A stretch of 64,000 bases of DNA from Elusimicrobia bacterium RIFOXYA2_FULL_47_53 (lineage in GTDB: Bacteria > Elusimicrobiota > Endomicrobiia > Endomicrobiales > XYA2-FULL-47-53): contig MGVE01000020.1 of NCBI GenBank assembly GCA_001800315.1, positions 186,001-250,000 on the forward strand, given 5' to 3'. Both the position numbers and the translations under genes were made by a program. This document shows, piece after piece, positions 1-13,883 of this stretch (position 1 is its first letter; every line of letters starts with the position of its first letter). Below the pieces are notes generated by a model that had not been told where the DNA came from, searched no databases, and was given only the letters and a program-made list of their open reading frames with translations.

Positions 1-102
1 AAGGAAGCCATAAAGTGCTCCAACTGCGGAAAAGAATATCCGGCCGGCTCAAGGAAACTGAGGTTCTGTATCAACTGCGGCAAGACGCTCAAGTGGGAAT
101 AA
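1..102 (+). CDS. C-terminal fragment of a zinc-ribbon protein
   Basis: The window opens inside a gene; 33 codons remain before the TAA. The tail carries two CxxC knuckles (CSNC and CINC, 13 residues apart), the usual four-cysteine zinc ribbon found at the end of many small bacterial regulatory or membrane proteins. The rest of the protein lies outside the window, so its role cannot be told. The next gene starts 4 bases downstream, so it probably belongs to the same operon. Confidence 0.6.
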   Translation, partial: KEAIKCSNCGKEYPAGSRKLRFCINCGKTLKWE

Positions 103-106
103 AATA

Positions 107-1318
107 ATGAAATATATATTAAAGCCTATATTGTATTTACTCTGCCTTATGTTTCTTGTGTCCGCGGCTGTATTTGCCGAGATACCAAAAAATATGAGCT
201 TTCAAGGCAAGCTGACTGACTCGGCGGGCAATGAACTCTCGGGCGATTATGATTTCCGTTTCAGCATATACACGCTCTCTTCCGGCGGCGCTTCGCTTTG
301 GAGCGAGGATCAGGTTAATGTGTCGGTTGTCGGAGGACTGTACAATGTTACGCTTGGCGTGAACACCGCCCTGAATCTTCCTTTTGATTCCGCGTATTAC
401 CTTGAAGTGGCGGTCAAAAAATCAGGAACGGCCTCCTTTGACAATCCCATGACTCCGCGGCACCTGCTAACCGCAAGCCCGTATGCTTTAGGTGTCACGG
501 GAATTGACAAAGGCGACTGGAAACAGCTTGTGTCAAGCGGTACAACCACATTACACTCGCACGCGGGGGCAGGATTGGGAGATATGACAATGGCGGTCTA
601 CGATTCGGACAGTGACAATATTGTTAACGATGCGGAAAGTGTGCGCTTGTTAAGAGTATCCGCATCCACCGGTATAATTACTGGAATAATTCCGAACTCA
701 GTTAAGGTTACTACCGGGAGCATTATTACATCTGCCGGGGCCGCGAATACTACGACATTCCTTCGCGGAGATGCGCGCTGGGAAGTCCCAGCGTTTACTG
801 GTAATATTAATACAACTCAAATTAATGCTGGTATAATACCCGATTCCGTCAAGATAACAACAGGAAATGTGGCGGCGTCTGGCACCCCAAGCGGGACAAC
901 ATTCCTTAGAGGCGATGGCCAATGGGGTTCGCCCGCGGGTTCGTCTTTTCCTTCGGTGGTTTTTGCATATGAAACGGCATCTGATGCTTTGACTGGAACT
1001 CCAACAAATATTTTCTCAGCTCAGATAACGCCGACCTCGGCGTCAAACAGGGTTAAAGCCACAGTTTGTGTTCAGATAAATAATGTAGGCGATACCGGTG
1101 TTTGCACGCATACAGTTATATTAAGGAGAGGAATAACAGATTTGATTTCTTTTTACGCCGGGACTTCAGACAATGCAGAGAAACCCACCATATCGTTTAC
1201 TTTTGTTGATTCGCCCGGCACAACAAGCGCTACCGTATATTACATACGGGCGCTTACGGATAGCGCCTCTGCCGAGGCAGTTAATAAAACGATAACTCTT
1301 GAGGAAGTTGGGCCATGA
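107..1318 (+). CDS. Secreted tail-fibre-like surface protein
   Basis: A 403-residue protein with a Sec signal peptide (about residues 1-25, ending near VFAEIP). Residues ~28-130 form a domain (MSFQGKLTDSAGN ... PRHLLTASPYALG) that is shared almost motif for motif with the next gene and recurs at the N-terminus of many bacterial repetitive surface proteins. The middle has two copies of a phage-tail-fibre-like unit: 'IPxSVKxTTG' followed by 'TTFLRGDxxW' (TTFLRGDARW and TTFLRGDGQW). The last ~120 residues look like a beta-rich tip domain ending at VGP. No catalytic motif is visible. I infer a trimeric or fibrous extracellular protein; its binding partner is unknown. It is the first complete gene of the envelope operon running to 13788. 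Confidence 0.6.
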   Translation: MKYILKPILYLLCLMFLVSAAVFAEIPKNMSFQGKLTDSAGNELSGDYDFRFSIYTLSSGGASLWSEDQVNVSVVGGLYNVTLGVNTALNLPFDSAYYLEVAVKKSGTASFDNPMTPRHLLTASPYALGVTGIDKGDWKQLVSSGTTTLHSHAGAGLGDMTMAVYDSDSDNIVNDAESVRLLRVSASTGIITGIIPNSVKVTTGSIITSAGAANTTTFLRGDARWEVPAFTGNINTTQINAGIIPDSVKITTGNVAASGTPSGTTFLRGDGQWGSPAGSSFPSVVFAYETASDALTGTPTNIFSAQITPTSASNRVKATVCVQINNVGDTGVCTHTVILRRGITDLISFYAGTSDNAEKPTISFTFVDSPGTTSATVYYIRALTDSASAEAVNKTITLEEVGP

Positions 1319-1379
1319 TATTTTGTATTGAGCGTTGGGGTGCGAATAGTCAAATACATTAAGCTTTTGGGAGACAAAA

Positions 1380-3632
1380 ATGGGTAAAACCAAATTTATT
1401 GCGGCATTGTTTGTTCTGCTTATTCCTGTAATCGCAGGGGCGGCGACGCCAAAAATGATAAGTTTTCAGGGCAAACTTACCGATTCCAGCAATAACGCGT
1501 TAAACGGTTCGTACGATTTTATTTTTACAATTTATGACAATGCAACTGCCGGCACCGCTCAGTGGACTGAAACTCAGACAGGCATTACCGTAACTAACGG
1601 TTTGTACAGCGTTGACCTTGGCGCTGTTAATGCCATCACCAGCTCCTTTGATGCCCCTTACTGGCTGGATGTCCAGGTGAGGCCTACCGGCGGAGGAACC
1701 TATGAGCCGTTGTCTCCACGCCACCGCTTAACAAGCAGCCCCTACGCTTTTATGAGCGATTACGCGTTAAATGTCAGCTCCGCGAATAATTACTGGCTGC
1801 AGCTTACATCCGGAGGCGCCACAAACCTGCATACTCATGCTTCCGGTACTCCGACCGCTCACGCGGCAACTCACGCGGCCGGCGCCGGTGACGCGGTGAC
1901 AATAAGTACCAGTCAGATTGTGAACGGTTCAATCACTTCAACAAAAATAGCAAATGTCAACGCAAGTGTTTTTAATCTCAATCTAAGTACTTTTACTTTG
2001 GGTTATTTGTCGGCTACGAGAGTACATGGCGGCCAATATTTTGGAGACGGATCGCAGTTGAGCGGAATTGTGGCGACGGTTGCCGATGGTTCAATAACAA
2101 CAGCCAAGCTGGCGGCAAATGCCGTGAATGGCGAGAAGATATCGCCTACGGTGATAGCATCCACGCATATGGCCGGCCATGATAACCATAGCGTCAACTA
2201 CGATATTGAAGTTTCAAGCTCCGGATATGCGGCGGTATCTGGTTCCGCGAGGAATCTGGCAAGCGGCACATATTTCAACGATGTAAAAGTTTCAACAGCG
2301 ATATATGCTGACAGCGCGGGCAGCGCGACGGTTGCCGATGGTTCAATAACAACAGCCAAGCTGGCGGCAAATGCCGTGAATGGCGAGAAGATATCGCCTA
2401 CGGTGATAGCATCCACGCATATGGCCGGCCATGATAACCATAGCGTCAACTACGATATTGAAGTTTCAAGCTCCGGATATGCGGCGGTATCTGGTTCCGC
2501 GAGGAATCTGGCAAGCGGCACATATTTCAACGATGTAAAAGTTTCAACAGCGATATATGCTGACAGCGCGGGCAGCGCGACGGTTGCCGATGGTTCAATA
2601 ACAACAGCCAAGCTGGCGGCAAACGCCGTGAATGGCGAGAAGATATCGCCTACGGTGATAGCATCCACGCATATGGCGGGCAATAACAACGATAGTATCG
2701 TTTATGATATTAAAGTTACAACTGCGATGTCTGTTCGCGATGAGGGGATAGTTCCGGCTAAAATGGCGAATTCGGACAGTCATTTTAACTTAAACCTGAC
2801 GACATTTACCTTTAAACATGCGAATGTATTGGGGATATTAAATTCGGCAAATGCCAATATTGGTCTTTTAGAGGGTAGCTCCGGACACGCAAAATTAGAA
2901 GTGGTGGGAACTGGCGATCATATGATAATAAATAACCCGGCCGCCGGAGCCAATAAGACATTGTGGCTTATTAAATCCACAGGTGATTATCTGGAGTTTG
3001 TGGCCCCTAATGATGGATGGACAACATGGCCGGCGGCAATGAAGATCAGCAGGGACGGAATACTCACACCAACTTACGGCCTGATAGCATCTACCATAAC
3101 TGCCTACAACGGCATAATAGCTTCTACTGTTGTGGTAACAGGTGCCAATGAAAACGGATACAGTCTTACGCTTTCTTCGGGAATAAGCGCTCCAAATGGA
3201 AGGATAACAGCTGAATATTTCACTGGCGATGGTTCAAGGCTCTCCGGAACAAAAAATATCGCAGTTTGGTATAAGGTATATGCGGATACTTCTACCGATC
3301 AGTTGGTTGGCGAGCAGGTAATATTTACCGCACCGCGGGCAATCACAATAACAGCCATTAAAATTGAACCTGCCGGTGATTTGTCTGGCCACCCCGTAAA
3401 TTATGCGACCGTTGCTGTTAACAGGTATAATTCTGATGGGACGGGTGGTGTGTCGGTAGCAACTGTTGCCACTTCCGGTACAAGCTGGACTAAATTTGAT
3501 GTAATAACTCCAGGGAGTTTGAGCAATACAAGTTTGGCGGCAGGGCAGAAAATTACGGTCGCTATTACAAAAGATGGTGGCGGTGTCGTAGTTCCGATAA
3601 TGGCCTTGCAAGTAGAATATACAGCTGATTGA
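1380..3632 (+). CDS. Secreted repeat-containing tail-fibre-like protein
   Basis: A 750-residue paralogue of the preceding gene. It has a signal peptide (~1-21), then the same N-terminal domain (MISFQGKLTDSSNN ... PRHRLTSSPYAF, ~25-125), then an 'HAATHAAGAGD' motif like those of phage tail fibres, then 'ITTAKLAANAVNGEKI' repeats. Residues ~232-432 are encoded by two identical 84-codon units plus a partial third. A 'GDGSxLSG' motif occurs twice, at the end of the shaft-like segments. The C-terminal ~120 residues are beta-rich and carry no sorting domain. GGGAG lies 5 bases before the ATG. I infer a surface fibre whose shaft length can change with repeat number. Confidence 0.6.
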   Translation: MGKTKFIAALFVLLIPVIAGAATPKMISFQGKLTDSSNNALNGSYDFIFTIYDNATAGTAQWTETQTGITVTNGLYSVDLGAVNAITSSFDAPYWLDVQVRPTGGGTYEPLSPRHRLTSSPYAFMSDYALNVSSANNYWLQLTSGGATNLHTHASGTPTAHAATHAAGAGDAVTISTSQIVNGSITSTKIANVNASVFNLNLSTFTLGYLSATRVHGGQYFGDGSQLSGIVATVADGSITTAKLAANAVNGEKISPTVIASTHMAGHDNHSVNYDIEVSSSGYAAVSGSARNLASGTYFNDVKVSTAIYADSAGSATVADGSITTAKLAANAVNGEKISPTVIASTHMAGHDNHSVNYDIEVSSSGYAAVSGSARNLASGTYFNDVKVSTAIYADSAGSATVADGSITTAKLAANAVNGEKISPTVIASTHMAGNNNDSIVYDIKVTTAMSVRDEGIVPAKMANSDSHFNLNLTTFTFKHANVLGILNSANANIGLLEGSSGHAKLEVVGTGDHMIINNPAAGANKTLWLIKSTGDYLEFVAPNDGWTTWPAAMKISRDGILTPTYGLIASTITAYNGIIASTVVVTGANENGYSLTLSSGISAPNGRITAEYFTGDGSRLSGTKNIAVWYKVYADTSTDQLVGEQVIFTAPRAITITAIKIEPAGDLSGHPVNYATVAVNRYNSDGTGGVSVATVATSGTSWTKFDVITPGSLSNTSLAAGQKITVAITKDGGGVVVPIMALQVEYTAD
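2073..2677 (+). repeat. 252-bp in-frame tandem repeat, 2.4 copies
   Basis: Copies start at 2073, 2325 and 2577. Copies one and two look identical at every base when read side by side. The third matches for about 100 bases (one visible T-to-C change) and then diverges after 2677. The unit is 84 codons, so copy gain or loss keeps the reading frame. Identical third-codon positions mean either recent duplication or ongoing gene conversion. Confidence 0.9.
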
Positions 3633-3652
3633 TTAAACTAAAACAGGTTGAT

Positions 3653-4870
3653 ATGAAAAAAATACTATTAATTATTCCACTGTTTATCGCCTCTGCCGCC
3701 TGGGGAAATAATTCCTCGGGGAGCGCTTATTCGTCCAAATTTGACCTGCACTCAAACGGCGGCGGTTCCGCCGCTTCTACTTCCTATAAAAATACCGCGT
3801 CTATCGGTCAGAGCGCCATAGGCAGTTCCTGGAGTTCAAACTACAAGAATTCGGCGGGTTTTCTAACGGCTTTTACCATAGTTATTGATGTGGTTATCAA
3901 TTTCCTGGATGAGTCTCCGTCTTCTTCCGAGTATCAGGATACCACGGATGTCACCTGCAAGGTCACCGTTGAGACGAGCGCCGGGAATAACCTTTCAAGC
4001 GTAAAATACAGACTTTCAAATTCGGGATCTGACGAGACCAGCTTCCTGGCATGGCAGTCGGACGCGAGCGTTGATTCCACCCCCAGCGCGACAAAAGTAA
4101 GGTATAAGATAGCTATTCCCAACGCCGGCGCGCAAACTTTTACGGACTCGGAAAATAATTTTATTCAGTGGCGGGCGAAAAATACGGGAGGCATTGAGGC
4201 TTTCTCCGCCAAATACAGGGTAAAGATAAGCACAAACGACGCTCCTGAAATAACAATAATTCAGCCCGACGAAAAGGGCGGTTTCGCCTCCGCGTCTCCG
4301 CAGATTGAGGCCGAAATAAAAGACAAATACTGGGGCGTGGACCCTGATACAATTGAGATAAAGCTTGATAACGGCAACGATGTAAATGTTTCGCTGACAA
4401 AGGTTTCGGAAGCTCCGACATTATTTTCGCTTTCAAAGGACCTGCTTTCATTTAAATACAACAAGACGCCACTTACGCCCGAGGCAACCTACAAACTGAC
4501 AATTTCAGCTTCGGACAAATCCGGCAAAGCCAGCTCCCAAACCGTGACATTTGTCGTCAAGGCCGGCGCGATAGCGGACCTGGTGCCGTATCCGTCGCCG
4601 TTTGACCCGAAAAAACAGCCGATAAAAATAAGGTATGTCTTAAACAAGGAAGCCGAGGTTTCCGTGAATGTCTATGACATGAGCGGCAGGCTTGTGAAAA
4701 CCGTGACTGACAATCAGCTTAAAAGCGCGGGAATAAACGAAGATGAATGGGCGGGCGCGAATTATGCCGGAGAAGGACTTGCCAACGGCGTGTATTTCTG
4801 CGAGATTACCGCGAAAGACGCGGACGGCGAGCACAGAAGATACTCAACGCTTGCCATATTCGGTAAGTAA
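3653..4870 (+). CDS. Exported protein with FlgD-type Ig C-terminal domain
   Basis: I place the start at the ATG at 3653 (405 residues), because it opens directly into a signal peptide (MKKILLIIPLFIASAAWG); a TTG at 3629 would add 8 residues in front. After a Ser/Gly/Asn-rich segment, residues ~75-190 and ~190-300 look like Ig-type beta-sandwiches. The last ~90 residues (PYPSPFDPKKQPIKI ... VNVYDMSGRLVK ... GLANGVYF) match the FlgD Ig-like fold used as a C-terminal sorting or anchoring domain in many Gram-negative secreted proteins. It has no catalytic motif. It probably ends up on the cell surface or outside. It sits 20 bases after the fibre gene and 16 before the PorV-like gene. Confidence 0.65.
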   Translation: MKKILLIIPLFIASAAWGNNSSGSAYSSKFDLHSNGGGSAASTSYKNTASIGQSAIGSSWSSNYKNSAGFLTAFTIVIDVVINFLDESPSSSEYQDTTDVTCKVTVETSAGNNLSSVKYRLSNSGSDETSFLAWQSDASVDSTPSATKVRYKIAIPNAGAQTFTDSENNFIQWRAKNTGGIEAFSAKYRVKISTNDAPEITIIQPDEKGGFASASPQIEAEIKDKYWGVDPDTIEIKLDNGNDVNVSLTKVSEAPTLFSLSKDLLSFKYNKTPLTPEATYKLTISASDKSGKASSQTVTFVVKAGAIADLVPYPSPFDPKKQPIKIRYVLNKEAEVSVNVYDMSGRLVKTVTDNQLKSAGINEDEWAGANYAGEGLANGVYFCEITAKDADGEHRRYSTLAIFGK

Positions 4871-4886
4871 GGGGCCTGTTACAGCA

Positions 4887-5930
4887 ATGATTAAAAAAGT
4901 ACTTATCACACTATTTGCCGCGGGAGCATTCAGCGCGGCCGCATACGGCGGAACCGACCCGGCAGCGTTTTTAAATATCGGCGTGGGCGCCAGGGCCATG
5001 GGTATGGGCGGCGCCTATACTTCCGTCAGCGACGAGCCGTCGGCTATCTACTGGAACCCCGCGGGCCTCTCCAGGGTAAACCGTATCAGTCTTACGGCCA
5101 TGGGACAGTCGCTGGGAGCCGTAAAGTGGGAAACTTTAAGGGACATAACGCCTTCTTATCAGTTCGTAGGGCTTACCTTCCCTTTTAAACAGTTCGGTTT
5201 TATAAACTGGATAGGCACCGACAATACTTTTGGCGCGGGTATGATAAGCAACAGCCTTACGGATGTAACCTATACGACGCTTGACGCTTCCGGGAAGATC
5301 GTAAGAGATACTTTTGACGACCTTGAGAAAGCTTACTATCTCTCCTACGGATTTTCGCTGTTGGGCATGGAGAGTATATCCGTCGGAGGCACATTTAAAT
5401 ATATTTCGCAGGAGTTTACAAAAATAGAAGGCGCCAAAGCGACTGGTTACGATTTTGAAGCCGGCATGCTTTATGACTGGAACAACTATACCACGCTTGG
5501 TATTGTAATGCAGAGAGGCGTCATACTGAATTGGGAGAACGGCGCAAAAGACACCGGAACTCTGACGACGAAATTCGGGCTTTCGCGAATTTTCCTGTTT
5601 ACCGATTCGCTTTCGCTGCTGGGCAGCGCGGATCTGGTTCAGCGCCAGAACCAGCCCCTTTTCGGGCACTTCGGCACGGAGCTGGGTTATGATCGGAATG
5701 TTTCCGGGAGCATAGTCGGCATAGAGGGCATATACCTGAGGTTTGGAGTGGACGGCGCGGCTCTTGAAAACCGATACGATTATATGACAAAAATTAACAA
5801 TAACTTAAATTATACGGCGGGACTCGGGCTTAGAATGTTCTATATGGGTTTTGCCATGCAGCTGGATTATGTGATGGGTTCTTACAGGCTCGGAGATAAA
5901 AACAGGTTCTCGGTCAGTATTTATTTTTAG
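4887..5930 (+). CDS. PorV/PorQ-family outer-membrane barrel protein
   Basis: 347 residues from the ATG at 4887; an in-frame upstream start at 4743 would run 48 residues back through the previous gene and has no signal peptide. The protein begins with a signal peptide (~1-21) followed by the family hallmark 'FLNIGVGARAMGMGGAYTSV' and 'AIYWNPAGLS', then alternating beta-strand-like segments and a C-terminus of RFSVSIYF, the usual aromatic-ended last strand of a barrel. PorV in type IX secretion helps hand C-terminally tagged cargo to the surface; family members in other phyla are uncharacterised. Its place between a FlgD-Ig protein and the regulators suggests a role in surface delivery of the operon's fibres (inference). 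Confidence 0.75.
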   Translation: MIKKVLITLFAAGAFSAAAYGGTDPAAFLNIGVGARAMGMGGAYTSVSDEPSAIYWNPAGLSRVNRISLTAMGQSLGAVKWETLRDITPSYQFVGLTFPFKQFGFINWIGTDNTFGAGMISNSLTDVTYTTLDASGKIVRDTFDDLEKAYYLSYGFSLLGMESISVGGTFKYISQEFTKIEGAKATGYDFEAGMLYDWNNYTTLGIVMQRGVILNWENGAKDTGTLTTKFGLSRIFLFTDSLSLLGSADLVQRQNQPLFGHFGTELGYDRNVSGSIVGIEGIYLRFGVDGAALENRYDYMTKINNNLNYTAGLGLRMFYMGFAMQLDYVMGSYRLGDKNRFSVSIYF

Positions 5931-5941
5931 AGGGTATTATT

Positions 5942-6805
5942 ATGAAAACTGCAAGGAGAAAAGTAACGCGGTTCCTGCTGCCTTTGCTGGCCGCGGTTCT
6001 GCTGCCGCTTGTTCCTGCCGGCCTCTCGGCCGAGAAAAAAGATGTCACCGATCCCGTAATGAGGGAAATAATAAACACCTTCAGTGCGAGGATGCCGAAA
6101 TTTATTGACAAGCACGGGCAGAATATTTTTGTTGCCGACGGCGCGGTTACGCGGGGCACGCTTATGCAGGCTCTCTATGAATACGACAAGACTTTAAAGA
6201 TTGGTAAAAGGGATTTTGTTTCGCGCGCCGAATACGAAGAGCTGCAAAACAGGCTCACGCTGCTTGAAAAATCGGCCCGCGGCGGTTCCTCCGCTCAGAG
6301 CATAGATATGACACAGCTGATAAACGACCTTGTTCCGAACATGCCGTATATTCTGGACAATTCCCTGTCAAATTCAAAGGTGTTTCAGGGGCTCAAGCAG
6401 TCTGTGGCTGCCAACAGCGGCGCTTCCCGCTCCGTTCCGGAAGGGGATTTTGTTGCCAGGGATGAATTCAGTCAGCTGTCAAACAAGCTTTCGCTGGTTG
6501 AGAGAAATATTGCCTCGCTTTCAATGGGCGGCACCAGAGGCGGTTCGGAAGATCCCGCGCTCAGGGGAATTATTGTTAAAACCCAGCAGGAAGTCGCAGA
6601 CCTGCGCAGAAAAGTTGAATCATCCGACGACAGGCAGGATTCCTCAAGCCGTATAGCGAAATTGGAAAGAAGAATAAGCAGCCTGGAGAGCGGCAGGGGC
6701 GCGGGAGGCGCGGCGGAATACGCCGATGCCGGCGGTTCTTCGTCTTCGCTCACAAAGATCAGCCTGGGCCTAAGCATGGTAGCGGCATTTTTTATAGCAA
6801 GATAA
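5942..6805 (+). CDS. Periplasmic coiled-coil protein, function unknown
   Basis: 287 residues. It starts with a basic stretch and a signal peptide (~10-32). It then has two related blocks, RAEYEELQNRLTLLEKSARGG and ARDEFSQLSNKLSLVERNIAS, each a short coiled coil preceded by a conserved segment. A third heptad-rich stretch follows (VADLRRKVES ... IAKLERRISSLES). The C-terminus is a short hydrophobic run (ISLGLSMVAAFFIAR), possibly a membrane tail. I do not recognise the family. Its position between the PorV-like barrel and the FHA membrane protein would suit a structural or tethering role. Confidence 0.5.
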   Translation: MKTARRKVTRFLLPLLAAVLLPLVPAGLSAEKKDVTDPVMREIINTFSARMPKFIDKHGQNIFVADGAVTRGTLMQALYEYDKTLKIGKRDFVSRAEYEELQNRLTLLEKSARGGSSAQSIDMTQLINDLVPNMPYILDNSLSNSKVFQGLKQSVAANSGASRSVPEGDFVARDEFSQLSNKLSLVERNIASLSMGGTRGGSEDPALRGIIVKTQQEVADLRRKVESSDDRQDSSSRIAKLERRISSLESGRGAGGAAEYADAGGSSSSLTKISLGLSMVAAFFIAR

Positions 6806-6829
6806 GTCCTTCAGTGAGGAGAGCAGATA

Positions 6830-9067
6830 ATGCCTAAAGTAATCTTAAAAAGAAAAGCAGAGGTTATCGCCGAGATCAGCCTGTTGCGCAAAAAAAAGAT
6901 CAGTGTCGGTTCGTCCAGGGACAACGATATTGTGATAAGCGACAAGAATATTTCGGAACATCACTGCACCATAGAGATCAAAGACGGTACTTATGAGTTG
7001 AAGGACAATAACACGCTGACCGGAACAAAGGTCAACGGCAGGTCGGTAACAATTTTTGAACTTCGTCCGGGCAATATAATCAGCCTCGGGACGCATTCTC
7101 TTACCATAAGGCCCGAGTCCGGCAGGCAGGGACAGAAAACAACCGACTCCGGGTTATCCGACGGCCCCAAGATGTACCTTCTCGGCATTTACGGTAAATA
7201 TGAAGGCAAGAAGTACGAAATTATCCAGGGCGATACATATATAGGAAGGGAAGATTCAAACCCCAGGGGCATGGTAAACGATATAGCCCTGAAAGAAGAT
7301 ATGACGGTTTCAAAAGGCCATGCTAAAATAAACTGCGCGGCCGAAAAGTGCACGCTCACAGACATAGGAAGCACGGGCGGCGTCGCGGTTAACGGAATTA
7401 AGGTGGGCCAGCTCAATGATATCACGATTTCTTCCGGCGATGAAATAGCGATAGGCAGAACTATTTTCAGGTTTGTCATCGGAGACACCGCCGATTATTC
7501 ATCGTCAAAAAAGTATGGCGTTTTTATGATGAAGATGCAGCGCCTTATTTCGTTCGTGGCGCTTTTTGGAATCCTCGGGGTCTCGGTTTTCTATATTTAT
7601 AAAGGTATCAGCGGGCTCTCAACGCTTTCCGCCAGTCCTGCCAAATTGAATATTGATTTTATGCAGGGATGGTCTGCCGACGGTAATATGCCGCATGAGG
7701 CGCTTGTGCCGTACGATGTGACCTCATCACCCGCGATGGCAGACATTAACAGGGACGGAACGGTTGATGTGGTCTCGGTGAACGCGACCGGCAAGCTGTA
7801 CGCCTGGGACGGCAAAAACGGCAGAAGCCTCTGGGATTCGGTTGACATTCAGGCTCCAGGCAGCGCTTCGCCCGTGATAAGCGACATGAATAACGACGGT
7901 TTTCAGGACATTACCGTGGTCTCCGGAAACTCCATGATCTATGTAATAGACGGCCAGTCAGGGGTGGTTGTTTATAAAGATATGCTCGGAGGCACGATAA
8001 AGGATCTCTCTCCCGCGGTGGCGGACCTTAATCTTGACGGAAGAAACGACATTGTGGTCTGCTCCGAAGAGGGTTCGGTGTATTTTATTTACTCGCCCGG
8101 GTTTGAAACTCAGACGGAAAAATATACCGATACCGTAGAGGCCCCTGTTTACGCTTCGCCGGTTATTGTCGCCACAAGAAAGATTTCTCCGCTTGCCGTG
8201 ATAAGTTCTTACAATAGCAAGGTATACATTATTGACGGCAGGAACAGAGAGAAGAAAACCATAGACCTCTCGGAGCGTACCGGCAAGGCGCATCTTTTGG
8301 CCGCCGCGCCCGGAGTGGGCGATTTAAACGGTGACGGAACCCCCGATATTGTCGTGCAGTCAACTCTTCCTCAGTATATTTCGGCGATAGATATTTCTCA
8401 GTTTGATGTTAAATGGACATATTTTGTTGATCCTGTCCCTCCCGGAGGACTTAAGCATAACGCTTCGCCCGTTGTCACCGATGTTACCGGAGACGGCCTG
8501 GGCGATGTTGTGGCTGTTTCCGCCAACGGAACGGTTTATGCTCTCAAGGGAAAAACGGGGTATCCTGCCGGCGAACTTTTGTGGAAGCTGGAAGTTCCCG
8601 AATCAGGAAGAATGCTGAGCTCGCCGGCCCTATACGACTTCAATAAAAACGGATCTCTTGACATTGCTTTCGCGGGAGAGAGCGGAACCATATATCTGGT
8701 TGAGACCGGAAACGATAAGCGCGGCAACAGATTGCTTGCCATGACAAGAGCGAGCAATTCGTCTATTACCTCAAGCCTCTCCATCGGCGACGCCGACGGA
8801 GACGGCCTGTTGGAGTTTGCCATAAGCGATGTAACGGATTCGGTGCATCTGCTTAAGACAAATGCCAGGGTTTTTAAAAACCGGGTGCCGTGGCCGATGT
8901 TCCTGTCCGGCCCCGGAAGAACCGGTATGCCCGCGGATACGGAAAGTAAGCAGCCTTTTGCTATTATGCTTATTTCCGGCATAGCGGCGGCCCTGACTGC
9001 CCTGGCTGTAAAATTTCTTGCAAAGAAAAAAGTTTTGATGAAACGCCCGAAAGTGGTTTATTTATGA
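6830..9067 (+). CDS. Twin FHA / transmembrane / beta-propeller protein
   Basis: 745 residues with an unusual layout. Residues ~5-95 and ~115-220 are two FHA domains; the motifs GSSRDNDIVI, SEHHC and N-G, then IGREDSNP, SKGHAKI and VNG are visible. FHA domains bind phosphothreonine peptides. A membrane helix follows (~238-258). Residues ~290-700 contain seven FG-GAP/VCBS-like calcium loops (for example DINRDGTVD, DMNNDGFQD, DLNGDGTPD, DADGDGLLE), consistent with a seven-bladed propeller. A second membrane helix (~710-733) and a short basic tail end it. The likely topology is FHA domains in the cytoplasm and propeller in the periplasm. It overlaps the PP2C gene by 4 bases (ATGA), so the two are probably made together. 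Confidence 0.75.
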   Translation: MPKVILKRKAEVIAEISLLRKKKISVGSSRDNDIVISDKNISEHHCTIEIKDGTYELKDNNTLTGTKVNGRSVTIFELRPGNIISLGTHSLTIRPESGRQGQKTTDSGLSDGPKMYLLGIYGKYEGKKYEIIQGDTYIGREDSNPRGMVNDIALKEDMTVSKGHAKINCAAEKCTLTDIGSTGGVAVNGIKVGQLNDITISSGDEIAIGRTIFRFVIGDTADYSSSKKYGVFMMKMQRLISFVALFGILGVSVFYIYKGISGLSTLSASPAKLNIDFMQGWSADGNMPHEALVPYDVTSSPAMADINRDGTVDVVSVNATGKLYAWDGKNGRSLWDSVDIQAPGSASPVISDMNNDGFQDITVVSGNSMIYVIDGQSGVVVYKDMLGGTIKDLSPAVADLNLDGRNDIVVCSEEGSVYFIYSPGFETQTEKYTDTVEAPVYASPVIVATRKISPLAVISSYNSKVYIIDGRNREKKTIDLSERTGKAHLLAAAPGVGDLNGDGTPDIVVQSTLPQYISAIDISQFDVKWTYFVDPVPPGGLKHNASPVVTDVTGDGLGDVVAVSANGTVYALKGKTGYPAGELLWKLEVPESGRMLSSPALYDFNKNGSLDIAFAGESGTIYLVETGNDKRGNRLLAMTRASNSSITSSLSIGDADGDGLLEFAISDVTDSVHLLKTNARVFKNRVPWPMFLSGPGRTGMPADTESKQPFAIMLISGIAAALTALAVKFLAKKKVLMKRPKVVYL

Positions 9068-10488
9068 GAATAGATTTTTTCGCTAAGACCGATGTAGGCA
9101 GGGTGAGGAAAGAGAACCAGGACTATTTCGGTTACCTGGAAGAGAGCGGTTTTTTTATTGTCTGCGACGGAATGGGCGGCGGAGCCGCCGGAGACTTCGC
9201 GAGCCGCGCCGCGGTTGAGGTGGCCCTCAAAGCCTTTGAAAAACTATCCATAGACGAGATATCCGAAGTCCTTGGAGATTCGGCCAAAGGGGTTCCCGGC
9301 GAAGCTCTCAGGCCCCTGGCGTGCATACGCCTTGCCAACAGGGCGCTTTTTAATTTCTCGGATAAATTTCACAGACTCAGCGGGATGGGAACTACGATCG
9401 TCGCGGTTCTCTATAATAAAGATACAAATATCCTGCATATGTTCCATGTCGGAGACAGCCGGGTTTACCGCTTAAGGCGAGGCCTTTTGGACCAGCTCAC
9501 AAAGGACCACTCCAAGGTCACTGAGCTTATTGAACAGGGCAAAATGCGCGAGGAGGATGTAAAGACGGCGGAAATCCAGAGCATGATAACCAGGGCGCTG
9601 GGAATACACGAAAAAGTCAAAATTGATTACAGGGCGGAGTTTGTTTTGCCCGACGACAATATAATGCTGTGCAGTGACGGCCTTGTCAGTGAGCTTGAAG
9701 ACGGAGATATCAAAGACATAATGCTGGCCAACAAAGACAGCGTCAGGGAAAGCACCGAGAGGCTGATTTCTTCGGCAAACGAGGCCGGCGGCAAAGATAA
9801 CGATACCGTTATTACGATGAGATTTCTCCCTGATGATAAAGCCCAGGCCGCCTCGCAGTATTCCGGCGATATGGTGGGGAATGTCGTAACCGTACCCGAG
9901 GAGACGCAAAAGCAGTCGGCGGTTGAGGACAAAATTCTTAAAAGTATTATATCGGCTGCCAGGGTAAAGGTTCCGAAATCAGCCAGAGAAAAGAGCATAA
10001 TCTCTAATCCATTATATCTTGGTTCGGCGCTTGCGCTGATAATTTTCGCAGTTGTTCTTTCCTTGTCCAAGCTCGGCACAAAACAGCCGGATACGGAACT
10101 GCTGGACCTGACCGGAAAGGTGGCGGGGATTGCGCTTGAGGTTCGCGCTCCAAAGAAGGAATATATTTCGGCTTTCAAAGCCGCCGAGGACAGAATTGAT
10201 AGGCTGGAGATGATTCAGGACTGGTACTCAAAGAAAGACGAATTAACCGTGCCCATGAAAAATGTGACCGTGATCATTAAGCAGGGCGGGGTGGAAAAAC
10301 TGCGGGTTAATACGAACGGGAAGGACTTTATTGAAATAAAACTTAACAGCGGTTCGTACGAATTTGTTGTTGAATACGACGGATACAAGGTTGTAAAAGA
10401 TTCCCTGGAGTTTAAGGAATCGGTGGGCATAAATGTAGAGATGAGTGATGTTTTAAAGCCCATTCTGCTTGTGATGCTGCCGGAATAA
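9064..10488 (+). CDS. Membrane PP2C-type Ser/Thr phosphatase with PEGA-like tail
   Basis: 474 residues. The N-terminal ~255 residues are a PP2C/PrpC phosphatase: GRVRKENQDYF, VCDGMGGG, HVGDSRVYRL, SDGLVSEL and GGKDNDTVI supply the metal-binding aspartates. A linker and one membrane helix (~318-338) follow. The remaining ~130 residues end in a PEGA-like beta-domain (KNVTVIIKQGG ... LNSGSYEFVVEYDGYKVVKD) that should lie in the periplasm. PP2C enzymes remove phosphate from Thr/Ser and usually oppose a Hanks-type kinase; none is in this window. Translational overlap with the FHA protein suggests the phosphatase acts on that protein or its ligands (inference). Confidence 0.85.
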   Translation: MRIDFFAKTDVGRVRKENQDYFGYLEESGFFIVCDGMGGGAAGDFASRAAVEVALKAFEKLSIDEISEVLGDSAKGVPGEALRPLACIRLANRALFNFSDKFHRLSGMGTTIVAVLYNKDTNILHMFHVGDSRVYRLRRGLLDQLTKDHSKVTELIEQGKMREEDVKTAEIQSMITRALGIHEKVKIDYRAEFVLPDDNIMLCSDGLVSELEDGDIKDIMLANKDSVRESTERLISSANEAGGKDNDTVITMRFLPDDKAQAASQYSGDMVGNVVTVPEETQKQSAVEDKILKSIISAARVKVPKSAREKSIISNPLYLGSALALIIFAVVLSLSKLGTKQPDTELLDLTGKVAGIALEVRAPKKEYISAFKAAEDRIDRLEMIQDWYSKKDELTVPMKNVTVIIKQGGVEKLRVNTNGKDFIEIKLNSGSYEFVVEYDGYKVVKDSLEFKESVGINVEMSDVLKPILLVMLPE

Positions 10489-10515
10489 AAATATCAGCGC
10501 AATAGGGAGAGAAAA

Positions 10516-11268
10516 GTGACAGGCAAAGGTTTAAAAATAATGATAATTGAAGATAATAAGTCTTTTCTTGAGACAATTCAGGATTTGCTTGAGACAAAAG
10601 ATTTTCAGGTGGCCGCTTACACCGAGGGCAGGAACATCGCGCAAAATATTGCCAAAGAAAAGCCGGACCTGCTTATGTTAGACATAAACCTTCCCGGCGA
10701 GGACGGATTCAGCATATGCAGGCAGATAAAGTCAGCTCCTGAGACAAGGGCGCTGCCGATTATTCTGATGACCGGCGACGCGACGATAGATATAGACAAG
10801 GGGTTCGCGCTCGGAGCCGATGACTGTATATTCAAGCCTTTTGATATTGACGATGTTATCGCCAGAATAAAAAAACTCGCCCGCAGGGATCCCAGGGTAC
10901 TCTTAGTTGAGGATGACAGAAAGATCTGCGAAATGGTAACCGCCATGCTCGCGGAAAAACATTATGACGCCAAGGCTGTCAACGACGGCAGGGACATTAT
11001 TAATGTCGTTAAGGGTTTCTCGCCGGACCTGATTTTGTTAGACATTTCGCTGCAGATCCCCCCGGACGGAATAGAAATATGCAGGCTGCTAAAATCGGAC
11101 AGCGAGACGAGGAAAACGCCGGTTGTAATGCTGACGGCCAATGAAGACGCAGACTCCATAGAGAAGTGTTTCGCTTTCGGCGCCGATGACTACCTGTTTA
11201 AGCCGTTTAAGACGCAGGATCTGTTGCTGAGGATAAAAAAATACATTGAATACTCTAAGAATGTATAG
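10516..11268 (+). CDS. Double-receiver response regulator
   Basis: 250 residues starting with GTG, with GGGAG 7-11 bases upstream. It contains two complete receiver domains and nothing else. REC1 (~5-122) has acidic EDN, phospho-acceptor LDINLP, MTGD and a KPF lysine. REC2 (~130-245) has EDD, LDISLQ, LTAN and KPF. There is no DNA-binding or enzymatic output, so it should work by protein-protein contact or as a phosphate relay. It is embedded between the PP2C gene and the PorV-like/TPR gene, and no histidine kinase lies in the operon. Confidence 0.85.
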   Translation: MTGKGLKIMIIEDNKSFLETIQDLLETKDFQVAAYTEGRNIAQNIAKEKPDLLMLDINLPGEDGFSICRQIKSAPETRALPIILMTGDATIDIDKGFALGADDCIFKPFDIDDVIARIKKLARRDPRVLLVEDDRKICEMVTAMLAEKHYDAKAVNDGRDIINVVKGFSPDLILLDISLQIPPDGIEICRLLKSDSETRKTPVVMLTANEDADSIEKCFAFGADDYLFKPFKTQDLLLRIKKYIEYSKNV

Positions 11269-11278
11269 CGGAGGCCAG

Positions 11279-13402
11279 ATGCGCGGTTTAAGCAAATCAT
11301 CAATTTCAGCCGTTGCGGCTGTTTTATTTTTTTCGGTCTCGTGTTTGGCCGGAACTTTTAATAACACATCCGAATTTTTGAGAATCGTGCCCGATCCGCA
11401 GTCTGTCGCCATGGGCGAGACGATCATGGCTTTTCCCGAGTCGCCTATGGGCATGGTGTCAAACCCCGCGGGCATGTCTATTGTGCGCCGTCCGGAGTTT
11501 TCTTTCAGCGAAACGCTTATGTGGGAGGGAATGCGCCATTATTTCCTCGGAGCCGTGATGCCCACGCAAATGGGAAATATTGGCGCCGGTGTAGCGCATA
11601 TGGCGTACGGCGATATCCCAGGGTTTGATAATAATGGCGATCCTTATGATATATCTTCTTCCTACGCCACCACATTTCTTCTGAATTATTCTATCCCCGT
11701 GAACAGGCATGTTCCGGTTCTCGTTGAATACGGAAGCGTGGGCTTTAATTTTAAATTTATTCAGGATAAACTTTCGGAATATCCGCTGGAGGGCATGGCT
11801 TTTGACCTGTCTGCCGTCGTTAAGATGCCTTTTGTGAAAAGTTTCAGCGCGAGTTTCCTCTATAAAAACATGGGCAGTTCCATGAAATTCGTCAATGACA
11901 CTTACCAGCTGCCGGCTTCGCTCAATTACGGGGTAAGATATGACCTGCCATGGATGACGCTGGTGGCGGACTCCTCAAACGACGCGGAGTCCAGCCTCTC
12001 CTCGTACTCCGCCGGATTTACTGTTTATCCCGCGCATTCCATAAGGCTTATGAGCGGCTGGAGAGAGTCCGCCGATTCCCTTAATTCCGGGTTTCGCTTC
12101 GGGCTTGGTTTTGATTTTGAATCTTTTACGGTCAATTACGCCATGCTGCCTTCAAACGATGCCGCTATTTCTCATCAGGCCGCCATTGAAATACCGCTCG
12201 GTCCCATTCCTCAGCAGGAAGCGGCATACAAGCGCAGCCTCGGATACTATTTTGAGAAGGCGAAGGAAAAATACTACCGCAGGGATTATATAGCCGCCAG
12301 GCAGATAATAGAAGATATTCTGGCGGTTTATCCGGGGCACAGGCCTTCAATAGAGTATCTGGAAAAAATAGGCGAAAAACTTGACGCTATTGACAGGTCA
12401 AAGACCCCTGAGGCCAATGCCCTGCTGGCCCGCGCCGATGCCGAGCTGGAGGCTGAGAATATTCCCGAGGCGAAAAAAAACTATGACAAAGTCCTTGAAA
12501 TATTCCCGGGCCATCCCGCGGCGCTTGACGGCCTTGCCAGAATAGACCAGATAATGGGCGGCTACAACGACGAAAAGGGTTTTAAGGACAGAGCCGAGGC
12601 AAAACGGCTTTTTCAGAAGGCTCTGGTGCTCTATAGAAAGGACCGGCTTGTTGAGTCCTGGGATATTTTCCTGAATATCCTTGAGCTGGACCCTTTTAAC
12701 GCCGAGGCAAGAGAATATGTAAAGGATATCAATAACCGCTTTACGACTTTGACAAAATGGGAAACAAAAAATATTTTTAAGTCCGGAGTCAGGTTGTACA
12801 AAAAAAACAGGTTCGCGGAAAGCATAAAGTATTTCAACGCTGTGCTGGCCGCCGACTCTAAGAACGCCCAGGCTCAGGAGTATATAGCCAGGGCCCAGGA
12901 AGGGGTCTCGCAGCTGCCTCCCATGGATCCGGCGGAGTCGGTGAAATATGAAAAAGAGCTTCTGGCAGTTAAAGAAAAAGCCAATAAAAAGTATTTGAAA
13001 GGCGACTACCAGGCCTCTTTGAACCTGTTCGCCGAAGCCATGAAAATAGCCGAGGAAAGACAGCTTGAGGTTTATGTTCCGGGCCTGAATAATTCAATGG
13101 CAAAGGTAAGGTCGGTGCTGTCCGACCAGCTTTGCGTTGCCGCGGATACGAGTTTTCAGAAAGACAAACTGGAGGATGCCGCAAAATCCTACGAGAAAGC
13201 TCTGGAGCTTAATCCGGACAACTCCACGGCTAAAGCGGGCCTGGATAAGGTTTCCATAAAACTCTCAAAATATTATTATGACCGCGGCATGGAAGCGTAT
13301 TCCAAGAGTGAAAGCGATAAGGCCAGGGAGTATTTTGAAAAATCCCTCAAACTTTATCCTGGCAACGAAGAGTCTAAGCGCATGTACGAAAAACTAAAAT
13401 GA
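11279..13402 (+). CDS. PorV-like barrel fused to TPR repeats
   Basis: I choose the ATG at 11279 (707 residues) because GGAGG stands 4 bases before it and the signal peptide begins there; an ATG at 11246 would overlap the receiver gene by 23 bases. Residues ~30-310 resemble the PorV/PorQ family (FLRIVPDPQSVAMGET, MGMVSNPAGMS, repeated amphipathic strands). From ~320 to the end there are TPR-like helical pairs (for example YYRRDYIAARQIIEDILAVYP, FAESIKYFNAVLAADSKNAQ, AKSYEKALELNPDN, AREYFEKSLKLYPGN). The order suggests a barrel with a periplasmic TPR scaffold. It is the largest envelope component of the operon and probably a platform for partners (inference). Confidence 0.7.
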   Translation: MRGLSKSSISAVAAVLFFSVSCLAGTFNNTSEFLRIVPDPQSVAMGETIMAFPESPMGMVSNPAGMSIVRRPEFSFSETLMWEGMRHYFLGAVMPTQMGNIGAGVAHMAYGDIPGFDNNGDPYDISSSYATTFLLNYSIPVNRHVPVLVEYGSVGFNFKFIQDKLSEYPLEGMAFDLSAVVKMPFVKSFSASFLYKNMGSSMKFVNDTYQLPASLNYGVRYDLPWMTLVADSSNDAESSLSSYSAGFTVYPAHSIRLMSGWRESADSLNSGFRFGLGFDFESFTVNYAMLPSNDAAISHQAAIEIPLGPIPQQEAAYKRSLGYYFEKAKEKYYRRDYIAARQIIEDILAVYPGHRPSIEYLEKIGEKLDAIDRSKTPEANALLARADAELEAENIPEAKKNYDKVLEIFPGHPAALDGLARIDQIMGGYNDEKGFKDRAEAKRLFQKALVLYRKDRLVESWDIFLNILELDPFNAEAREYVKDINNRFTTLTKWETKNIFKSGVRLYKKNRFAESIKYFNAVLAADSKNAQAQEYIARAQEGVSQLPPMDPAESVKYEKELLAVKEKANKKYLKGDYQASLNLFAEAMKIAEERQLEVYVPGLNNSMAKVRSVLSDQLCVAADTSFQKDKLEDAAKSYEKALELNPDNSTAKAGLDKVSIKLSKYYYDRGMEAYSKSESDKAREYFEKSLKLYPGNEESKRMYEKLK

Positions 13403-13788
13403 GTAAAGGATTGTCTATGAGAAAATTCATGAAAGATTTTTTTGGCAGGTCAGTGCTCGCGGCCTGGGTTTTGCTCGCGGCGGCCTCAGGCCTGTACGCC
13501 GAAATAAAGGCTTATCCCGTTCCCTGGATCCCCGAGGACGGCAAGGTCAGGACGGGGAATGTTGATGACGGAATTACATTTTCCGGCCTGCCGGCCAGCG
13601 GCGAAATACTAATTTACACTTCCGTGGGAAACCTTGTCAGAAAAGTTGAGCTTGCCTCGCCGGCGGGAGGGAAGCTGAGCCTGTTCGGCAAAGATGACGG
13701 CTTCGCGCCTGTTCCGAGCGGCGTATATGTCTGGAAAGTAAAAGCTCCGAACATTTTAAAGACGGGCAAGATAGTCGTAGTAAGATAA
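13399..13788 (+). CDS. Mini secreted FlgD-type Ig (sorting-like) domain protein
   Basis: 129 residues; its ATG overlaps the stop of the previous gene by 4 bases. An alternative start 6 codons in (MRKFMKDF) begins nearer the signal peptide, which ends near LYAEIK. What remains (~95 residues) is a single domain: KAYPVPWIPEDGK, GEILIYTSVGNLVRKV, VPSGVYVWKVKA, KTGKIVVVR. This is the same fold signature seen at the C-terminus of the proteins at 3653-4870 and 56917-60600, here with no cargo attached. It could be a decoy, a plug or a structural subunit of the export machinery; the function is unknown. Confidence 0.6.
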   Translation: MSKGLSMRKFMKDFFGRSVLAAWVLLAAASGLYAEIKAYPVPWIPEDGKVRTGNVDDGITFSGLPASGEILIYTSVGNLVRKVELASPAGGKLSLFGKDDGFAPVPSGVYVWKVKAPNILKTGKIVVVR

Positions 13789-13860
13789 CACAGAAATATT
13801 TTCGCTAAGTTTGAGGCCGCGGCGGATTGTCCACGGCCGGGTTTGCCGAAACTGTACGGA

Positions 13861-13883
13861 AAACCACGGGTTCGTGGTTTTTT
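13861..13883 (+). terminator. Rho-independent terminator of the envelope operon
   Basis: An 8-bp perfect stem (AAACCACG at 13861-13868 with CGTGGTTT at 13873-13880, GGTT loop) runs straight into a T tract. It follows the last envelope gene by about 70 bases and ends 18 bases before the next start codon. Confidence 0.85.

Follow-up and report, generated by a model that had tools for sequence, protein, structure and literature searches.

An operon of fibre-like, PorV-family and FHA-propeller genes headed by a Ser/Thr kinase in Elusimicrobiota

The window analyzed here is a stretch of 64,000 nt from the genome of Elusimicrobia bacterium RIFOXYA2_FULL_47_53 (Elusimicrobiota, Endomicrobiales; G000 below), and its numbering is used throughout unless a contig or locus is named. 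It opens on an operon in which genes for a writer (kinase), a reader (FHA-propeller protein), an eraser (PP2C phosphatase) and a receiver are interleaved with genes for fibre-like, FlgD-Ig and PorV-family proteins. The layout, conservation and possible function of this operon are the subject of this report.

Organization of the operon

An earlier note on this DNA had described ten tightly spaced plus-strand genes running up to a terminator. All ten open reading frames (ORFs) were found at the reported coordinates in a check of the window, with gaps of at most 61 bases and a stem-loop at the end; the intergenic distances of genes 1-10 are, in order, 61, -4, -128, 11, 24, -4, 27, -23 and -4. Better starts exist for gene 4, at 4887, opening the signal peptide MIKKVLIT..., and for gene 9, at 11279, with GGAGG ahead of the start codon, so that the two larger overlaps (-128 and -23) disappear, the 128-base overlap of genes 3 and 4 being a start-codon artefact; for gene 3, a start at 3653 is likelier. 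The parts list of the earlier note largely stands as to genes and domains, and is incomplete at its head, where a Ser/Thr kinase gene, almost all of it outside the window, had been overlooked. The last base of this gene, 102, lies four bases before gene 1, and since no larger same-strand gene is found near in front of it, the kinase is probably the first gene of the operon. That the ten genes and the kinase form a co-functional operon can be taken as nearly certain. The features of the locus are listed below.

-3107..102 (G000:C20:182893-186102; L071:10894-14103), +, kinase gene: Ser/Thr protein kinase, transmembrane segment, two PEGA domains, CarboxypepD_reg-like domain and zinc ribbon, 1069 aa
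1..102, +, end of the kinase gene: last codons, zinc ribbon
107..1318, +, gene 1: secreted fibre protein resembling mosaic adhesive trimer (MAT) proteins, with signal peptide and FQGKLTD N-domain, 403 aa
1380..3632, +, gene 2: secreted MAT/tail-fibre-like protein, 750 aa
2073..2695, +, fibre-shaft tandem repeat in gene 2: in-frame unit of 252 bp (84 aa), 2.5 copies, 98% DNA identity
3653..4870, +, gene 3: secreted protein ending in a FlgD-Ig / type IX secretion system (T9SS) type A tail; frame open from 3629
4887..5930, +, gene 4: outer-membrane barrel of the PorV/PorQ family; frame open from 4743
5942..6805, +, gene 5: signal peptide, N-terminal motif TRGxLxxALYEYDK, coiled coil, hydrophobic C-terminal end FIAR
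6830..9067, +, gene 6: FHA1, FHA2, transmembrane segment (231-267), BamB-like propeller, transmembrane segment (708-737)
9064..10488, +, gene 7: PP2C phosphatase, transmembrane segment (311-340), periplasmic tail
10516..11268, +, gene 8: two REC domains, no output domain
11279..13402, +, gene 9: barrel of the PorV family joined to a TPR superhelix (PorV-TPR); frame open from 11246
13399..13788, +, gene 10: small secreted FlgD-Ig-like protein
13858-13883, +, intrinsic terminator: 11-pair stem plus T tail

An mgtE-like gene begins 113 bases past gene 10.

The signalling proteins

The kinase matches the Pkinase (5.3e-40), PEGA (3.5e-24) and PknB-type (7.4e-65) profiles, keeps the catalytic Lys and the YRDVSPGN and DFG motifs, and has one transmembrane segment. 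Gene 6 shows two FHA domains and an FG-GAP/PQQ propeller by Pfam-type domains; its AF2 model has a mean pLDDT of 85.4, and the best PDB matches of the propeller are to BamB (E 1.7e-15). The residues of the phosphothreonine site of FHA2 (G-R, S-K-G-H, N) are invariant in 34 of 34 sequences and the corresponding Arg of FHA1 is missing, so FHA2, to judge by sequence, is the likely phosphothreonine binder. Gene 7 matches NF033484 (PP2C Stp1) at 2.2e-63, with the metal-binding motifs DGMGG, GDSR, SDGL and DN all present. By hydropathy and model, the kinase and the phosphatase are single-pass proteins, and two transmembrane segments flank the propeller of gene 6. It is highly probable that the kinase, FHA protein and PP2C constitute a writer/reader/eraser module.

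Profile matches thus verify the FHA-transmembrane-propeller protein, the membrane PP2C and the double receiver that had been read from the sequence. A PP2C-PEGA fusion, also proposed, is not supported: Pfam finds no PEGA domain in gene 7, whose periplasmic tail matches CarboxypepD_reg weakly (0.03), and places PEGA in the upstream kinase instead. Phosphothreonine control turns out to be better supported than had been stated, because the overlooked Ser/Thr kinase heads the operon. The suggestion of phosphorelay control is not supported, the receivers lacking an output domain and the operon genes including no histidine kinase. Counterparts of gene 8 are a single receiver in order family f6 and two separate genes in G062, a genome of another class.

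Fibre-like, FlgD-Ig and PorV-family proteins

Genes 1 and 2 match the N-domain of Bdellovibrio MAT proteins (NCBIfam NF053851, Bdello_MAT_N) at 4.6e-7 and 5.6e-10, under the cut-off of 60 bits, and matches to this model are seen in proteins of the relatives too. Gene 2 also matches PHROG tail fibre profiles at 3.5e-8 and 4.5e-8; with these matches, the two tail-fibre-like secreted proteins of the earlier description are upheld. In many relatives, the protein at the fibre position carries a conserved C-terminal domain, absent from the window copies, that in some matches tail-fibre profiles; no S74 domain was detected by Pfam in the relatives scanned. Because the 84-residue repeat copies in the shaft of gene 2 are 98% identical, they are a sign that the shaft changed length recently, and length variation is possible. 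Homologues of the coiled-coil gene 5 keep its N-terminal motif and FIAR end over lengths of about 260-810 aa.

Two FlgD-Ig proteins had been proposed. Gene 3 fully deserves the name (FlgD_ig 2.2e-10; TIGR04183 29.4 bits, above the cut-off of 23), its tail region also giving a weak match to the PorU model; the matches of gene 10 are weak (FlgD_ig 0.0071, TIGR04183 0.0012). The two PorV-like barrels, one with TPRs, were both recovered with the PorV/PorQ family profile NF033709, gene 4 at 3.5e-16 (59.7 bits, under the cut-off of 90) and gene 9 at 2.4e-26 (93.1 bits, above it). The AF2 model of gene 9 has a mean pLDDT of 82.6, and the closest PDB fold to its barrel is 6h3i_F, the PorV of the T9SS translocon (6.5e-11), with FadL ranking behind; a sequence-profile search of PDB gave TPR matches only, the barrel being recognised by fold alone.

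Small proteins of the gene 10 type adjoin PorV-TPR genes in other loci. A second conserved cluster, seen in L031, L033, L035, L036, L038 and L067-L069, consists of another PorV-TPR gene and receivers, with a small FlgD-Ig protein in most of these loci. It is also of note that FlgD-Ig matches occur in open frames of 17,343 and 24,396 aa (G000:C6 ~90218-90442; G004:C22 ~72011), which are probably surface proteins.

Conservation and separable sub-modules

A phylum sample of 294 genomes was searched for the full-length FHA-propeller, which was found in order families f1, f2, f5 and f6 and in G062; the scan of genome contigs used clade-specific motifs, so homologues may also occur in other phyla. 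The gene order kinase, MAT, FlgD-Ig, PorV, coiled coil, FHA-propeller, PP2C, REC and PorV-TPR recurs in more than 30 relatives, and it persists at 36-60% identity and in another class. Co-location in relatives had been set beforehand as the test of the cluster, and with this result chance clustering is rejected. The G062 locus reads kinase end, FlgD-Ig, PorV, coiled coil, FHA-propeller, PP2C, REC, REC and FHA-GAF-cyclase, with no fibre gene at the locus and an FHA gene apparently split by a frameshift.

The FHA-GAF-guanylate/adenylate cyclase protein that follows the two single receivers in G062 (L143 655-3074, minus strand) hints at a cyclic-nucleotide output. A further contig, L100 (JAQUWU010000065.1, titled Paludibacter sp.), carries an Endomicrobiaceae-type operon within a Bacteroidota bin, and is a probable case of binning contamination.

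Among Endomicrobiales loci that could be read from kinase to FHA gene, MAT, FlgD-Ig and PorV are either all present or all absent. On the FHA tree, the presence and absence of this trio require five changes, all forced by starred branches, and where a complete genome lacks PorV at the locus, it has no PorV orthologue elsewhere either. The all-or-none pattern and the lack of orthologues elsewhere tie the trio to one job, and it is probable that the PorV, FlgD-Ig and fibre proteins act together. The earlier note had envisaged a dedicated export and assembly machine; since the trio comes apart from the signalling genes, one indivisible machine was rejected. Genus g7, which includes named flagellate-endosymbiont candidates (Endomicrobiellum), offers four genomes in which signalling genes and PorV-TPR are kept and the trio is gone; others have stop codons in FHA or neighbouring genes (G026, G030, G045, G169) or no operon genes. 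This gradient of decay in reduced genomes fits a surface role that is useful outside the host cell.

A separate cassette of CHASE2-Ser/Thr kinase, PP2C and FHA genes, conserved across the phylum, is found in G000 at L144 (G000:C7) 3992-8075 on the plus strand, where it adjoins PorV and a giant FlgD-Ig gene on the opposite strand. In the other genomes sampled, no PorV lies beside this cassette. A general rule that kinase/PP2C/FHA cassettes adjoin PorV was thus rejected: cassettes of this kind do not in general share the link to PorV seen in the window operon.

Relation to type IX secretion

T9SS has been assigned to Bacteroidota (PMC4793230), and the present operon lies outside that phylum. A search for T9SS core genes elsewhere in the genome, suggested by the earlier note, gave mixed results. 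A SprA-like ORF of ~1770 aa, one per genome, matches three collinear segments of the SprA model (166 bits, E 6.6e-49) and is present in 38 of 59 relatives; in G000 it lies away from the operon (L146 5173-10479, minus strand; G000:C1). T9SS-type C-terminal tails occur in several further proteins of the genome. The motor genes gldL and gldM (porL, porM) were not found: GldL had no match in these genomes in a search whose positive control, a Paludibacter bin (G294), did match, and GldM had none in a search run without a positive control. With these searches negative, a canonical T9SS was rejected; with the SprA-like protein also only loosely tied to the operon, it is appropriate to speak of T9SS-like parts rather than of a T9SS. 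The operon shares with T9SS the PorV-fold barrels and the T9SS-type C-terminal tail, alongside a SprA-like protein of below-cut-off score in the genome, and is distinguished from it by the undetected GldL/GldM, the fusion of PorV to TPRs and the linked Hanks-type kinase.

A model for the operon and its alternatives

We propose, with about even confidence, a phosphothreonine-regulated operon for the PorV-assisted display of adhesive surface fibres. The anatomy, motifs and conserved linkage of the operon are observed, whereas export and its phospho-control are inferred from them. With its periplasmic PEGA domains, the membrane kinase would sense the envelope, and it would phosphorylate a threonine, either its own or one of the FHA protein or of a partner, to be bound by FHA2 of gene 6. 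Gene 6 would couple the cytoplasm across the inner membrane to its BamB-like periplasmic propeller, for which the TPRs of PorV-TPR could be the docking site; PP2C would reset the switch and the receiver (gene 8) would supply a second input. At the outer membrane, gene 4 (PorV) and PorV-TPR may help to move or anchor the gene 3 protein, probably with a SprA-like translocon, and the gene 3 protein may in turn help to hold the MAT-like fibres of genes 1 and 2 at the cell surface. PorV-dependent export, taken by itself, falls slightly short of an even chance, and phospho-control of fibre assembly is more tentative still. The most far-reaching version, in which MAT fibres are built outside Bacteroidota by a SprA/PorV-based, GldLM-independent export route under the gating of the Hanks-type kinase, the membrane-spanning FHA-propeller and PP2C, with PorV-TPR and propeller as the trans-periplasmic link, is unlikely.

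Several observations weigh against this proposal. The MAT matches of genes 1 and 2 fail to reach the cut-off and involve the N-domain, and another path to the surface is conceivable for the fibres. All 34 FHA1 sequences have S, N or K at the position of the Arg. Neither motor gene was found, with a positive control for the GldL search only, and the SprA-like score lies under the curated cut-off of 200. A reduced genome, G006, has a SprA-like protein (G006:C6) without FlgD-Ig or a full PorV-TPR, so that the protein may have another role there; conversely, G044 has the full operon and no SprA match, possibly owing to fragmentation. Finally, the kinase, FHA-propeller and PP2C genes remain without the trio in several lineages, and thus probably also serve something beyond it.

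The persistence of signalling genes and PorV-TPR in lineages without MAT, FlgD-Ig and PorV evokes the main rival, an envelope-homeostasis switch in which these proteins mainly monitor growth, division or outer-membrane protein insertion, with the trio as a co-regulated output only. The propeller would then stand in for BamB, in keeping with its BamB-like fold and with the report that Endomicrobiaceae are without BamBCD (PMC11257099); the downstream neighbours in family f6, which by sequence resemble genes of envelope and housekeeping functions (EnvC-like, CtpA-like, GalT-like and GlgA-like), also favour this view. However, eight-bladed propellers in general give such a match to BamB, the trio keeps its place within the operon, with the kinase gene on one side and the FHA gene on the other, over deep divergence, and the whole module is lost in some reduced genomes; we regard this switch as a rather unlikely explanation. 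A complete T9SS of divergent type, under Hanks-type regulation of its own, would account for the SprA-like protein, the PorV-family barrels and the T9SS-type tails of several proteins, but GldL and GldM gave no match where the GldL control was positive, and the presence of the SprA-like protein is not tied to the operon; even allowing for highly divergent motor homologues, which are possible, it is improbable. Still less credible is a loose operon, in which FHA, PP2C and kinase share a transcript with surface genes and act on unrelated targets: the CHASE2 cassettes without PorV in the other genomes sampled do indicate that such cassettes are in general use, but the conserved order, the all-or-none trio and the tie of the FHA-propeller architecture to this locus all speak against it.

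Comparison with known systems

Every domain of the operon is known; their combination is not described in the literature found. Searches on PorV with FHA, Elusimicrobia with T9SS, Elusimicrobia with FHA, and PEGA with FHA yielded no description of this system, in agreement with the initial impression that none had been described. In mycobacteria, the FhaA-FhaB-PstP-PknA-PknB cluster joins kinase, FHA and PP2C in one envelope-linked operon, without outer-membrane barrels, fibres or a propeller on the FHA protein.

In outline, the logic of the operon would parallel that of the PpkA-PppA-Fha pathway of the type VI secretion system, applied to a PorV-based fibre system. That pathway comprises a membrane Ser/Thr kinase, a PP2C and an FHA scaffold, with outer-membrane factors feeding the kinase (PMC12607579). 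Both place kinase, PP2C and FHA genes (motifs intact here) together with a surface-active assembly; here, in contrast, the FHA protein is membrane-spanning with a periplasmic propeller, the presumed client is the PorV/fibre set, and domain scans found no type VI structural genes among the operon genes. With a TPR, a beta-propeller, a CRD and a peptidoglycan-binding domain, PorE/PG1058 of T9SS bridges periplasm and outer membrane (PMC5053529). TPR, propeller and a weak CRD-like match are present in the operon, but on different proteins and in association with FHA, PP2C/kinase and a PorV barrel; the resemblance is not taken as homology. As for the Bdellovibrio MAT fibres, whose surface anchor is unknown (PMC10769870), the common features are a signal peptide, then an N-domain that looks related, and a tail-fibre-like shaft, whereas the N-domain scores below cut-off here and the genes are linked to PorV and kinase. 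PorV and the FlgD-Ig protein are candidate partners for MAT-type fibres.

The main comparative study of Endomicrobiaceae names pilins as the only encoded appendages (PMC11257099); with this operon there is a conserved candidate for another surface structure, and PorV-type proteins outside Bacteroidota gain a regulatory context. The series of losses in a lineage that entered protist cells provides natural material for testing its function.

Upstream neighbourhood

Upstream of the operon, at L071 3768-6499 on the plus strand (window about -10233..-7502), a tyrosine-recombinase-like integrase is followed by an AbiEi/AbiEii-like toxin-antitoxin pair, which, from their sequences, may represent a mobile element.

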